Part shown: positions 49,893 through 61,005 of the stretch, in pieces
Layout: each line of letters starts with the position of its first letter
How positions within the stretch are numbered: position 1 is the stretch's first letter
Source: Fragilariopsis cylindrus CCMP1102
Taxonomy: Eukaryota > Bacillariophyta > Bacillariophyceae > Bacillariales > Bacillariaceae
DNA length: 64,000 bases
Reading direction: 5' to 3'
NCBI GenBank assembly: GCA_900095095.1
Contig: FMBT01000328.1
Coordinates: 186,001 to 250,000 of the forward strand
Translations under genes and position numbers: made by a program
The notes under the pieces: generated by a model
The model's input: only the letters and a program-made list of their open reading frames with translations
What the model was told of the DNA's origin: nothing
The model's database searches: none

Positions 49893-51514
49893 TTAAAACA
49901 TTCCTGAACCAGCATTGATCCGTTCTGCAAGACTAGGACCACCAACTCCTCCATCATTTCTCAATCCATGATCTGCTGCTTCTACTTCAGCAGATACTGG
50001 TATTTCTATAACCGCAACTGCTCCAGATGATGACGATCCACTGGAAAGAATATTTGAAGCAAGACTGGTAGCTTTTTCATTTTCCATCACTCCCCATCTC
50101 GATTTACCTGCTGCAGCGGCGGCGGCTATTCTGGCATTACGAATGTCGTATATGGAAGGAACACCAGAGTTTATGACATCCAAAACAGGAGCTGATGAAG
50201 GAGCGGTGATTACTGCAGCGTCACTTCCACCGGTAAATAGTTGTTGACCAAGATTCACACGTTCTGCTAATGATGGTCCTCCGACGCCTCCATCATTTCT
50301 TAATCCATGATCTGCTGCTTCAACTTCAGCTGCAGCAACGGCCGGTGTAGATGAGGTTGACGATGACAAGGAAGGTTTCGAGGCCTCTTCGGTTGCCTTT
50401 TCTGATTCAGCATTACCCCATCGTGATTTGCCAGCCGCTGCTGCTGCTGCTATTCTCGCATTTCTTTTGCTGTACAAATCATCGGAGCTTGATAAACTTA
50501 TCTGGGATGGAGTAGTTGATCCATTGACAACCGCGCCATTGACGTCTACTTTACTTGGCTCTGACTGGGATAAACTTATGTGGGATGGAGTAGTTGATCC
50601 ATTGACAACCGCGCCATTGACGTCCATTTTGCTTGGCTCTGACTGGGATTTTACATTTACTTTGGTATCATTGGATGATATTTGGACCTTAGCTACTTCC
50701 TTATCACCCCAACGAGACTTACCAGCCTTACCTGCCGCCGCCACATTAGCATTACGTGTATCGTACAATTTTGTATCCGACGAAGATTCCACTATATTGA
50801 CCGGCGTCGAACTATCAGTAGCAGAGGATGATGCCTGTAATAGAGCTAACTTCCCCTCATACTTGGCAGCAGTAGCTGCTTCCGCCGCCATTACTGCCTT
50901 CATTTTTTGAAGTTGGGATTCAACAATATATTTTGCCATAAATTGTTGGTACTGGACTAATTTCGCTGCAAGTTCCGCTTTCGACATATCGCTTACTGCC
51001 AGACCGGATGATGGTGGTGGAGCTGTTGCTGCGACAACAATTCCTGCTGAACTCTGTTTGGCATCGTCAGTAGATTCTTTAAGAGCAGTAACCTCACCTC
51101 TCAGTACCTTACAAAAGAAATGGAGAATATGGTGCATCGGATTTTCAACTACAATTAGAAAACGAATTTGTAGAAACGAACGAACGAACGAACGAACAAC
51201 GATCAAATGTCTTGAATACGTTCTTCTTCTTATCCTTATCCTTGACTTACATTAATCTGAGCATTCTTCTTATCTTCAACTTCTTTGACTGCTCGAATTT
51301 TTTCTTCATGTGCCTTGACCATGTAATCTGTTAAGTCTTCTGGAGATAGAAATAACGACGATGATGATGATGATGATGATGATTCGGTGGCGGTAACTCG
51401 TCTACCTATCGTACATTTCAAATTATTTGCCTGCCTTGTATACATGAAACTATGAACCGGAGACGCAGCATCCAATAGGACGAGAGCGGCAACGACTGAA
51501 CTTGTGAATTTCAT
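49893..51514 (-). CDS. Plastid-type Ala-rich repeat protein (SRWG repeats)
   Basis: Two exons: 51514-51251 and 51107-49893 (GTAAGT donor; AAG acceptor), 492 residues. The N-terminus is a signal peptide (MKFTSSVVAALVLLDAASP) ending VHSFMYTR, compatible with a diatom plastid presequence with Phe at the cleavage point. Then come a helical, charged segment (LSPEDLTDYMVKAHEEKIRA) and a Lys/Ala coiled-coil-like region (residues about 128-178). The rest is low complexity with three copies of a motif, Y-D/S-x-RNA-x-x-AAA-x-x-AGKSRWG, at about 202-222, 299-319 and 407-427. Two copies of a second motif, EAADHGLRNDGGVGGPSLAE, lie near 353 and 466. A 26-residue tandem (QSEPSK...NGSTTPS) lies near 243-294. 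Family not recognised. The spaced identical motifs in disordered linkers resemble a multivalent scaffold. Confidence 0.85.
50491..50646 (-). repeat. 78-bp tandem duplication in SRWG repeat gene
   Basis: Two adjacent 78-bp units, 50491-50568 and 50569-50646, almost identical. Each encodes 26 residues of the QSEPSK(M/V)DVNGAVVNG type, so the gene has expanded recently in frame. Confidence 0.9.
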
Positions 51515-51778
51515 TTTGTTTTTCTTCTTCTTCTTTATTCTTTTATGTAACGAGACCGAGGACGTAGGTCAAATTCTTGTTTGTTTTGGGAAACGAAAAA
51601 GATAATTTTTTTTTTTTTTTGATGTGTAGAAAATTGGATTGATTCTCGCTAAGTTGCTTTTTTATGTTCACCAATGTTATGTTGACAGACTTCTGAAAGA
51701 ACTACTAATACATGGGGAAAAAAAAGCAAATACGTACGACAAGACATGGTACCGGTATCATTCAACTCATGCAACAAT

Positions 51779-51948
51779 CTATTTATCGCAAAAATATTAC
51801 GTAGAGGTAGGTTTTAACGTTCTGACGCCCATACACCAATCAAATCTCATCGTAAAAATGTGTCTATTTATCGCAATAATATTACGTAGAGGTAGGTTTT
51901 AACGTTCTGACGCCCATACACCAATCAAATCTCATCGTAAAAATGTGT
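51779..51948. repeat. 85-bp tandem duplication
   Basis: Units 51779-51863 and 51864-51948 begin CTATTTATCGCAA and end GTAAAAATGTGT. They differ at one base (AAAAATATT versus AATAATATT). Such near identity implies a recent event. Confidence 0.95.
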
Positions 51949-58167: not shown

Positions 58168-59158
58168 ACAAAGTTAATTGTTAGTATTTAATTACCACAA
58201 CTTATTATAGCCATAGCGGTCTGTTGATTTTCTTTGCTTTTTCTTTGTGGTAAGTTAAGTGGTATTTAAAAATACACCACAAAGCCGCCGAACTCCCGTA
58301 CTTTAATAATAAAAGATTCATTTGAAAGTTAGTACTGTTTGTTGAAGTAACTTACTTATGCTTCTTACGACTATTACCGGTATTAAAAATATAGCATTTA
58401 GCCGTTGAGCTCCCCTACTTTGAATAACAAAGGATTCATTGTCATTTGTAGTTAGTACACCCAACTATATTTTTACTTGTTACTTGCTCCTGAGAGTGGG
58501 TGTGTTCAGAGCAATCCTACTGAAGTTTGACATACAGTAAGTGCTTAACTGCTAGTTGAAGTAACTTACTTACTTACTTATGCTTCTTATGACTATTACC
58601 TCAAATTCGAAAATGGTCGGCAAAACTTGATACAATAGGTCCTACTACCCTTTTTTTAATTTTAATCTCACGATTTTCAACCAAGCGCGAAACAAATTTT
58701 CAATCACGCTTTCCTTTCAGATTCATTCCTACAATCATTCATCAAGTCAATAAAGTGTCATCAATTTTACTGTTGATAAATAATTTTTATACGGTTAGAG
58801 AATGATCGTAAAGAAATAAGCCACTTATATTGACTATTGCCCCTAGTCACACATACAGACAAAAAGAAAAAAACGAATACGTTTCTCAAACGGCAAATTA
58901 TATTATTATTGTACTGGTATTGCTTTTTTACTATACTGTCGTATGTTGAATGTCTCGACAGACACCAGACAACATACCGTTTCTAAAGGTCACGCCTTGT
59001 ACACTCGAACGTACACCTCTTTCAAATTTGCTCTCTTTATAATAAAATATTCTATCTTTCTTGTCGACTACACTTTCATCGTAGAACATAAGTACACAGA
59101 AAAAAAGTGTTTTAGAACGGAAGAAAAAAAAATTAAAAGCACACGTTTAATATTGAAG
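58168..59158. other. Intergenic, CPSF1 to tyrosinase
   Basis: About 990 bp, AT-rich. The left part carries a degenerate two-copy repeat. The right part (from about 58700) has A-runs and is presumably promoter and 5' UTR of the tyrosinase gene. An in-frame ATG at 58943 would add 72 residues without signal-like properties and is not used as the start. Confidence 0.6.
58263..58602. repeat. Two-copy direct repeat with insertion
   Basis: Copy 1 (58263-58380) and copy 2 (58381-58602) share TATT(T)AAAAATA, AGCCG..GAxCTCCC.TACTTT, AGGATTCATT-like and GTTGAAGTAACTTACTTA followed by GCTTCTTA.GACTATTACC. Copy 2 has about 100 bp of extra sequence in its middle and an expanded (ACTT)n. Confidence 0.75.
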
Positions 59159-61005
59159 ATGATTCACTTCAGTTCAACTTTTCTCCTTTTACTCTCTACA
59201 ACAACGTGCATGTTCCAAAAGAACTTATGGGTAGCGTCACAAGAGACAGAGAGATTATGGGCGCCCCAAAAGAACTTATGGGTAGCGTCACAAGAGACAA
59301 AGAGATTATGGGCGCCGTCACGGATATCAGAGGAGACGGCAGAGGAGACGACACAGTGGCCTTCGTCACGGGTATCGGAGGAAACGTCAGAGGAAACGTC
59401 AGAGGAAACGTCAGAGGAAACACTGAAGGAAGAGTCAGAAGAGACGCCGGAGGTAGAGCTAGAGAAGGAAATATCCATGGAGTGTTCACGAACTCGTAAA
59501 CGTTGGGCTTGGTCGGACCATAGCTGCGAAGAACAGGATGAATATATTGAGGCTGTTTACAGACTAAGAGAAGAAGGAATATATGAAGACTTTATACGTG
59601 TTCACCGTGATGTGAACGAGCGGTATCATGGTACTGCCGAATTTTTGCCTTGGCATCGTTGGTTCATTTTTCAATTTGAAGATGCTCTACGAAAAATATC
59701 AATGAATCCATGCATCACCCTCCCCTACTGGGACTGGCAAGATTCCTCTGTCTTTGACGACGATACCTTTGACGGGTTCATTGGATGGGATAATAATGAG
59801 GACGAATGCAGATGGGAAACTTTGGGGGGACGCTGCTTAGAACGAAATATGAATAGGAATTTTGAAATGTGGAGATCAGGACAAATTATTGCAATGATTA
59901 CCAACTATGAACAGTACTCCGACGACTTTCCCAGGAACTCTCGTCGGAACAATGGTTTTCGTGCAGCAATGGTAAGATAAATAAACAAATAAATGTATAT
60001 ATATATATACATATATACATATATATCTTCCGCGTCGATAACAATAAGTTGTTGAAATCGTATAGATCATTTCTTCTGCCCGGACCACTTTCTCTCTAAC
60101 TTAACTTATTTTTCTTTCAGGAAGGAGGGCCTCATGCTGCTCCACACCAATTCTTGGGTGGTCCAATGTTGAACATGATCAGTCCAACCGATCCCCTCTT
60201 CTTTGTTCATCATTGCAATGTTGATCGTATCTGGTCTTTGTGGCAGGACTATCATGATCACGATGAGATAAATATCTCCCGTTATGATACTCCCATACAT
60301 TACGAAGGCAGTTTATTGGACGAACCGATGAGATTTGATGATCACAGGATGTTCCGCATGAGAAATGGAGACTATCCTGCACCGAGGGACGTTCTTTCTA
60401 ATGATGACATTGTAAATGTACTCTATAAAAACGATCAGCTAGGAAGAAGTCTACGTTACGATCCCAATCCTGATTGGATTGAACCTGCTTCTTCGGGAAC
60501 TGATGAAGTTAAGTGTGACCGAGAATCGAGGCACCGAGAACGAGGACGTCGAGATTTGAAAATAGGGAATATTTTGGACGACCGATTTGGAGGGAAAATG
60601 AGAGTTAGTCTGGCTAGCAAGGAATTTGAGAAAAAGGGCGTAAAAGGGTCATTCTTCTCCGCCTTTTCTCTCCGTGGAAGTAATGCCGAAAACCATCACT
60701 ATCAACCAAAAGAAGAAGCGGTCGAAAGACAACCGATTCCCAAAGACAGCAGCTTCAGCTCCATCGAAAATTGTATAGAGATGAATGACTTCACAGACCA
60801 AGAAGAACGAGAGATATGGGATCGTCTTTGTCAAGAAATGTCTCTAACTTCTACGTTTGCTGAACGGATGGCATTCCTAGCTCAAGAAGAATGTAAAGTG
60901 CACGGTGATCCCTACAGTGCAAGCATAGAGTGGATTCATGCAATCAATATGGACAACGAACTTGTAGCGTTCGAATGTTTCCACCTACCTGATCGAGACA
61001 TTTGA
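59159..61005 (+). CDS. Secreted tyrosinase (type-3 copper oxidase)
   Basis: Binuclear copper monophenol/diphenol oxidase. Two exons: 59159-59971 and 60121-61005 (GTAAGA donor, TTTCAG acceptor), 565 residues. Start at 59159 gives a signal peptide (MIHFSSTFLLLLSTTTCM). CuA site: FIRVHRDVNERYHGTAEFLP and PWHRWFIFQFEDAL, giving three His. CuB site: EGGPHAAPHQFLGG and DPLFFVHHCNVDRIWSLW, giving three His. All six ligands are therefore present. LPYWDWQD is also typical. Between signal and catalytic domain lie a 17-residue tandem repeat (QKNLWVASQETERLWAP) and a SEET-repeat acidic spacer. The C-terminal ~230 residues are unassigned. Known substrates are phenols; here the role (wall, mucilage cross-linking or defence) is unknown. 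Confidence 0.92.
59215..59316 (+). repeat. 51-bp tandem repeat in tyrosinase N-terminus
   Basis: Units 59215-59265 and 59266-59316 encode QKNLWVASQETERLWAP and QKNLWVASQETKRLWAP; the DNA copies are nearly identical. Confidence 0.93.
59386..59421 (+). repeat. 12-bp SEET repeat in tyrosinase
   Basis: Three perfect GTCAGAGGAAAC units encode (SEET)3, flanked by degenerate copies on both sides. They form an acidic, Ser/Thr-rich spacer before the catalytic domain. Confidence 0.9.

Follow-up and report, generated by a model that had tools for sequence, protein, structure and literature searches.

The principal finding in the window, that is, the whole 64,000-nucleotide stretch of DNA that was analysed, is a predicted two-exon gene on the minus strand (49893-51514) whose spliced product of 492 amino acids is best explained, at about even confidence, as a nucleus-encoded, plastid-targeted multivalent scaffold, or linker. 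A putative plastid presequence and a helical N-terminal region precede a tail that carries three copies of one motif, M1 (YxxRNAxxAAAxxAGKSRWG), starting at residues 203, 300 and 408, and two copies of another, M2 (AEVEAADHGLRNDGGVGGPSLAER), at residues 348 and 461, with HGLRND within them at 355 and 468. The intron was selected as the best by splice signals among the nine frame-keeping GT-AG joins in the range searched. The features of the gene are as follows.

51251-51514, minus strand: exon 1, encoding the signal peptide (aa 1-22), the F at +1, a transit-like stretch (about aa 23-54) and the start of the helical region
51108-51250, minus strand: predicted intron of 143 nt, donor GTAAGT, acceptor TTTCTTTTGTAAG, pyrimidine-rich
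49893-51107, minus strand: exon 2, an open frame joined to exon 1 without an internal stop
50826-51346, minus strand: helical region of the N-terminus (aa 57-182), split by the intron and also present in a relative at G000:C62:4808-5335
50706-50765, minus strand: M1a, YDTRNANVAAAGKAGKSRWG, aa 203-222
50491-50649, minus strand: 78-bp in-frame tandem, two copies of 26 aa, 95% matches
50415-50474, minus strand: M1b, YSKRNARIAAAAAAGKSRWG, aa 300-319, with 12 synonymous and 0 nonsynonymous differences from M1c in 17 core codons
50259-50330, minus strand: M2a, AEVEAADHGLRNDGGVGGPSLAER, aa 348-371, with 10 synonymous and 0 nonsynonymous differences from M2b in 24 codons
50091-50150, minus strand: M1c, YDIRNARIAAAAAAGKSRWG, aa 408-427
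49920-49991, minus strand: M2b, AEVEAADHGLRNDGGVGGPSLAER, aa 461-484

The initial annotation had described three M1 copies spaced 97 and 108 residues apart, two M2 copies and a 78-bp in-frame tandem, and all of these were recovered in the spliced product, the motif arrangement at a level beyond that of shuffled sequences. The best internal 21-mer identity at a distance of at least 25 was 21/21, compared with no more than 11 in 200 local shuffles. At a distance of at least 40, the runner-up score among the window's 44 stop-to-stop frames of at least 150 amino acids was 12/21, shared by two frames that include the antisense frame of this gene. The tail can be read as three units, the first consisting of M1 and the 26-residue tandem and the other two each consisting of M1 and M2, and units 2 and 3 probably came from a duplication, as their M1-M2 linkers are partly alike (13/26 residues, in a Ser/Ala-rich alignment). 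All three tryptophans of the protein reside in M1, as do all three tyrosines of the repeat region.

As the closest copies of each motif differ only synonymously, M1 and M2 look selected at the protein level, in a comparison that covers the motif codons. M1a is further away, with four nonsynonymous codons of 17 against M1b and likewise against M1c. Both motifs are apparently older repeats kept at the protein level, for which recent DNA expansion alone would be insufficient; the 78-bp tandem itself looks young. In searches of the organism's own genome (67.9 Mb, 818 contigs), an M1 query of 30 residues hit nothing but the three copies in this gene. A GKSRWG-type pattern was found at seven places in the same genome, three of them in this gene, while a control pattern was found at two. 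Among the other four places, the one on contig C398 was alone in lying within an open frame of at least 60 residues that reads GKSRWG, and was rejected as a HAD-like sequence (by eye) without the RNA part of the motif.

The putative signal peptide spans aa 1-22 and ends in VHS, with F at residue 23 (MKFTSSVVAALVLLDAASPVHS/FMYTR, cleavage site placed by eye at the slash). The 31 residues following this F contain 4 K/R, 1 D/E and 13 S/T, a Ser/Thr-rich composition that is more basic than acidic. As described in PMC4329603, diatom plastid proteins carry an ER signal peptide followed by F, W, Y or L at +1; their transit peptide is rich in hydroxylated residues and net positive. The presequence as read by eye appears to fit this rule, and the protein is probably plastid-located as predicted from its sequence, in agreement with the plastid-type presequence first proposed.

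The structure model (single-sequence AlphaFold2) was made for exon 2, and the part of the helical region in exon 1 was judged helical by eye. In the model, one helix runs through aa 131-182, along which the ten-residue mean pLDDT drops from 92 to 51, and ten-residue blocks with a mean pLDDT above 70 occur within aa 129-168 only. Searches of the own genome revealed a relative of this region on contig C62, first found at E values of 0.0003 to 0.006. Its open frame (L021:2309-2923, G000:C62) contains 205 residues, 179 when counted from the first Met, and aligns with aa 13-172 of the 492-aa protein with a Smith-Waterman score of 173, compared with at most 68 in 1000 shuffles. By eye this relative has an F-type presequence (TTA/FVV); inspection of its frame showed neither M1 nor M2, and it is made of the N-terminal helical region only. 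As the C62 relative has the region without the tail, the N-terminal region counts as a separate domain, and the comparison suggests that the motif tail was either an addition to this domain or was lost in the C62 relative. An internal duplication in the N-terminal helix is not claimed, its score having been reached by 28/2000 shuffles for the 492-aa protein and 11/2000 for the C62 relative. Weaker matches to the C62 query on C565, C108 and C144 (E 0.13-0.52) were dropped after inspection, as was a match on C324 (E 2.2) from the search for relatives; those on C670, C72 and C439 (E 2.9-5.2) were left out of the inspection.

Most of exon 2 has no predicted fold, with 317/404 residues at a pLDDT below 50 and a mean of 45.7 in the single-sequence model. 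Short low-confidence helices overlap all three M1 copies; in both M2 copies such helices set in with the final four residues. The tail may be disordered, although the model is single-sequence and a charge-hydropathy index assigned only 3/17 blocks of the protein to the unfolded class. With the exons scanned separately, nothing in Pfam reached the cut-off (best E 0.12). In a further Pfam scan of other frames, PRIMA1 and Hpr_kinase_N matches lay below the cut-off and were taken as composition effects. Searches of exon 2 against PDB sequences yielded no solved relative (best E 0.62). The family was thus as unfamiliar to these databases as it had been in the initial annotation, and a known single domain across the repeats was looked for in Pfam and PDB without being found. 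The proposed layout of stickers and spacers is supported, as are repeats that look selected and an exon 2 largely unfolded in the model.

M2 also occurs outside this gene. Two coded patterns, for which control patterns gave 0 and 3 places, located M2 at four places in the genome: two in the 492-aa gene and one each on contigs C464 and C67. The latter two are copies of one gene, 89-94% alike in three main aligned pieces. The C464 frame (L019:1873-6651, G000:C464) encodes a giant acidic protein of 1593 residues from Met with a pI of 4.38, a presequence read by eye as CIA/FLP, five KGPPxSFGxSVA-type repeats and one M2. A query of this repeat type matched only the C464 and C67 (L020) copies, and outside M2 the C464/C67 protein is unrelated to the 492-aa protein. 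Neither the C464 protein nor the C62 relative has a Pfam family at the cut-off or a solved relative by sequence. The DNA around M2b is shared to the letter with one of the two copies.

49897-50008, minus strand: stretch of 112 bp surrounding M2b, identical to G000:C67:31460-31571

Over a wider 128 bp, the M2b block matches C464 at 96.1% identity, and both genomic counterparts lie inside another predicted plastid protein. In C67 the M2 block is in a different frame from the upstream part, which is either an error or real, and by eye a deletion and a shift of frame immediately ahead of M2 distinguish the C464 and C67 copies; the M2b-type block retains its open frame in C464. Judged from this identity, the M2b block is one that recently moved between genes or was homogenised, and the near-identical DNA may be a recent copying accident without a common binding role. 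Exon 2, M1 and M2 queries against viral contigs, and an M2 query against prokaryote genome contigs, gave no confirmed relative, and an M1 DNA pattern was found 0 times in each of the two collections. As the collections searched consisted of prokaryotes and viruses, the lack of an outside relative says nothing on other diatoms.

The known linker closest in kind is PYCO1, which links Rubisco in the pyrenoid of Phaeodactylum tricornutum; in the account given in PMC10288592, a BLAST search by its authors returned no homologue in other sequenced algae, and only a short isoform encoded by the genome that carries PYCO1 itself. As PYCO1 is described there without a homologue in other algae, the gatherer of Rubisco in other diatoms looked open. 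PYCO1 is described as plastid-located and mostly disordered, with tryptophan in repeated motifs, repeats of about 80 residues and two kinds of sticker, KWSP and GTGYNP (PMC10288592). The 492-aa protein is like it in having repeated motifs with tryptophan, two kinds of putative sticker, a predicted plastid location and a tail that may be disordered. The pI of PYCO1 is given as 10.03 (PMC10288592), whereas the 492-aa protein is acidic, with segment pI values of 5.36-5.90, and it differs from PYCO1 in its N-terminal helical domain, which the C62 relative has on its own. KWSP, GTGYNP and EWGSM/EWASM do not occur in the 492-aa protein. The PYCO1 large-subunit element AAEWGSMNQ, as described, shares W-G-x-M with SRWGVME of M1c, a likeness too short to count. 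In the own genome, the PYCO1 sticker pattern K-W-S-P-(R, Q, K, H, N or S)-G-G was found 0 times (control 0), in a search that a diverged or intron-split form would escape. The pattern of the PYCO1 large-subunit helix, E-W-G/A-x-M-N, was found at two places (control 0), neither of which resembled a repeat protein by eye.

FLIPPer, a search for Rubisco linkers, looks for repeated elements 20-120 residues apart as described in PMC11570498, and the M1 spacings of 97 and 108 fall inside this range, which is a broad one. The green algal Rubisco linkers EPYC1 and CsLinker are described as mostly disordered with short repeated helices (PMC11570498, PMC10473226). The M1 spacing falls in the range used to search for them, with CsLinker compared by description, but they belong to another lineage, and Rubisco binding of the 492-aa protein is only conjectural. 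The Chlamydomonas proteins SAGA1/2 and RBMP1/2 offer a likeness to M2, being described as otherwise unrelated plastid proteins with one short motif in common, a motif that the same account describes as unfound in other lineages, where common Rubisco-binding motifs of other sequence may build other pyrenoids (PMC10473226). M2 would be such a common motif if it bound Rubisco. Set against the Chlamydomonas Rubisco-binding-motif proteins, the sharing of M2 is recent at the DNA level. The Chlamydomonas Rubisco-binding motif is [D/N]W[R/K]xx[L/I/V/A], and in this form it does not occur in the 492-aa protein. The M1 and M2 peptide strings did not occur in the literature searched. No diatom linker besides PYCO1 was apparent from titles and the beginnings of abstracts; Nam et al. 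2024 and Shimakawa et al. 2024, whose subject is reportedly diatom pyrenoids, may list an orthologue.

In the scaffold model that we prefer, the N-terminal helical region would, after import into the plastid, associate with itself or anchor the protein, and the tail would present three M1 and two M2 stickers on flexible spacers. By attaching to copies of one or two partners that are abundant in the stroma or at the thylakoids, these stickers could cross-link or cluster them, and the C464/C67 protein could join the same assembly through M2. That the partner is Rubisco, in the pyrenoid matrix, seems unlikely. The initial annotation had suggested a pyrenoid or thylakoid scaffold, and while the sticker-and-spacer layout is supported, a pyrenoid role in particular is not, since the absence of PYCO1-type and Chlamydomonas-type motifs and the acidity of the protein disfavour a plain Rubisco linker. 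A Rubisco role nonetheless keeps some probability, as the coded PYCO1-type sticker pattern had no match in the own genome, PYCO1 is described without algal homologues, and the spacing fits. A broader proposal, to which we give low credence, is that this is a diatom without a PYCO1-like linker that would use scaffolds with motifs of their own (the 492-aa and C464/C67 proteins), M2 being a transferable tag for docking on the pyrenoid or on a different plastid condensate. Two candidate proteins, the 492-aa and the C464/C67 protein, and two peptides, M1 and M2, are offered for the gathering of Rubisco in diatoms, and should the partner be something other than Rubisco, the protein would still represent a new kind of diatom plastid scaffold.

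Other functions were weighed against this scaffold. The protein could instead be a plastid adaptor or tether, with the helical N-terminus docking on a membrane or complex while M1 and M2 each recruit a client such as a light-harvesting or biogenesis factor. This is a less probable reading that we nonetheless take seriously, since the N-terminal region stands alone in the plastid-type C62 relative and so has a job without stickers, and the small number of motif copies (three M1, two M2) and the acidic pI also favour it; three similarly spaced M1 copies, two of them with identical cores, nevertheless exceed what one client would need. M1 is locally basic, with several basic residues per copy (RNAR...GKSR in M1b and M1c, for example), and could bind RNA or DNA as part of a protein associated with the plastid nucleoid or ribosome. 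We consider this improbable, as the tail is acidic overall and Pfam contained no nucleic-acid-binding domain for it at the cut-off, the best exon-2 match being the TDP-43 C-terminal model at E 0.4.

A signal peptide and Ser-rich low-complexity stretches would also be expected in a secreted or silica-associated protein, or in a precursor cleaved into repeated peptides. The F at +1, however, points to the plastid under the rule described in PMC4329603, and the repeat region contains a single KxxK, a single dibasic site and no RxL, making this explanation highly improbable. The least credible possibility is that the repeats have no function and reflect recent duplication of low-complexity sequence. 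The recent look of the 78-bp tandem, with its 95% matches, and the copying of the M2b block between genes are what such a history would leave, but this reading was already disfavoured, because many synonymous changes separate the most similar copies of M1 and of M2, whose protein cores were kept.

The region upstream of the gene provides a lead on its expression. TGACGC is described as one of three CO2-responsive elements of PtCA1 and PtCA2, which are diatom carbonic anhydrase genes (PMC7378808), and it is present four times in the 1206 bp upstream of the 492-aa gene against 0.36 expected, with 0 occurrences of TGACGT. The copies lie 314-890 bp from the start codon, in a region common to a divergent CPSF-type gene. 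As the element was picked after looking, this enrichment is a lead only. An 85-bp tandem (51778-51948, two copies, 98%) is located upstream of the gene, each copy containing one TGACGC, with two more further upstream. In the 800 bp upstream of the C464 protein, TGACGC was found 0 times and TGACGT once, and neither was found upstream of the C62 relative.

Elsewhere in the own genome, 27 stretches matched silicon transporters (best E 1.1e-226), compared with 0/14 control genomes over the cut-off, which marks the genome as that of a diatom. Six other frames of the window were scanned against Pfam, giving a photolyase FAD-binding domain, a CPSF A-type protein, COG5, two tyrosinase matches and one frame without a match; none of these six points to a plastid neighbourhood. 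The tyrosinase domain extends across two open frames (58943-61005), which are perhaps a single gene with an intron, and a 51-bp tandem (59215-59316, two copies, 98%) lies within the first of them.
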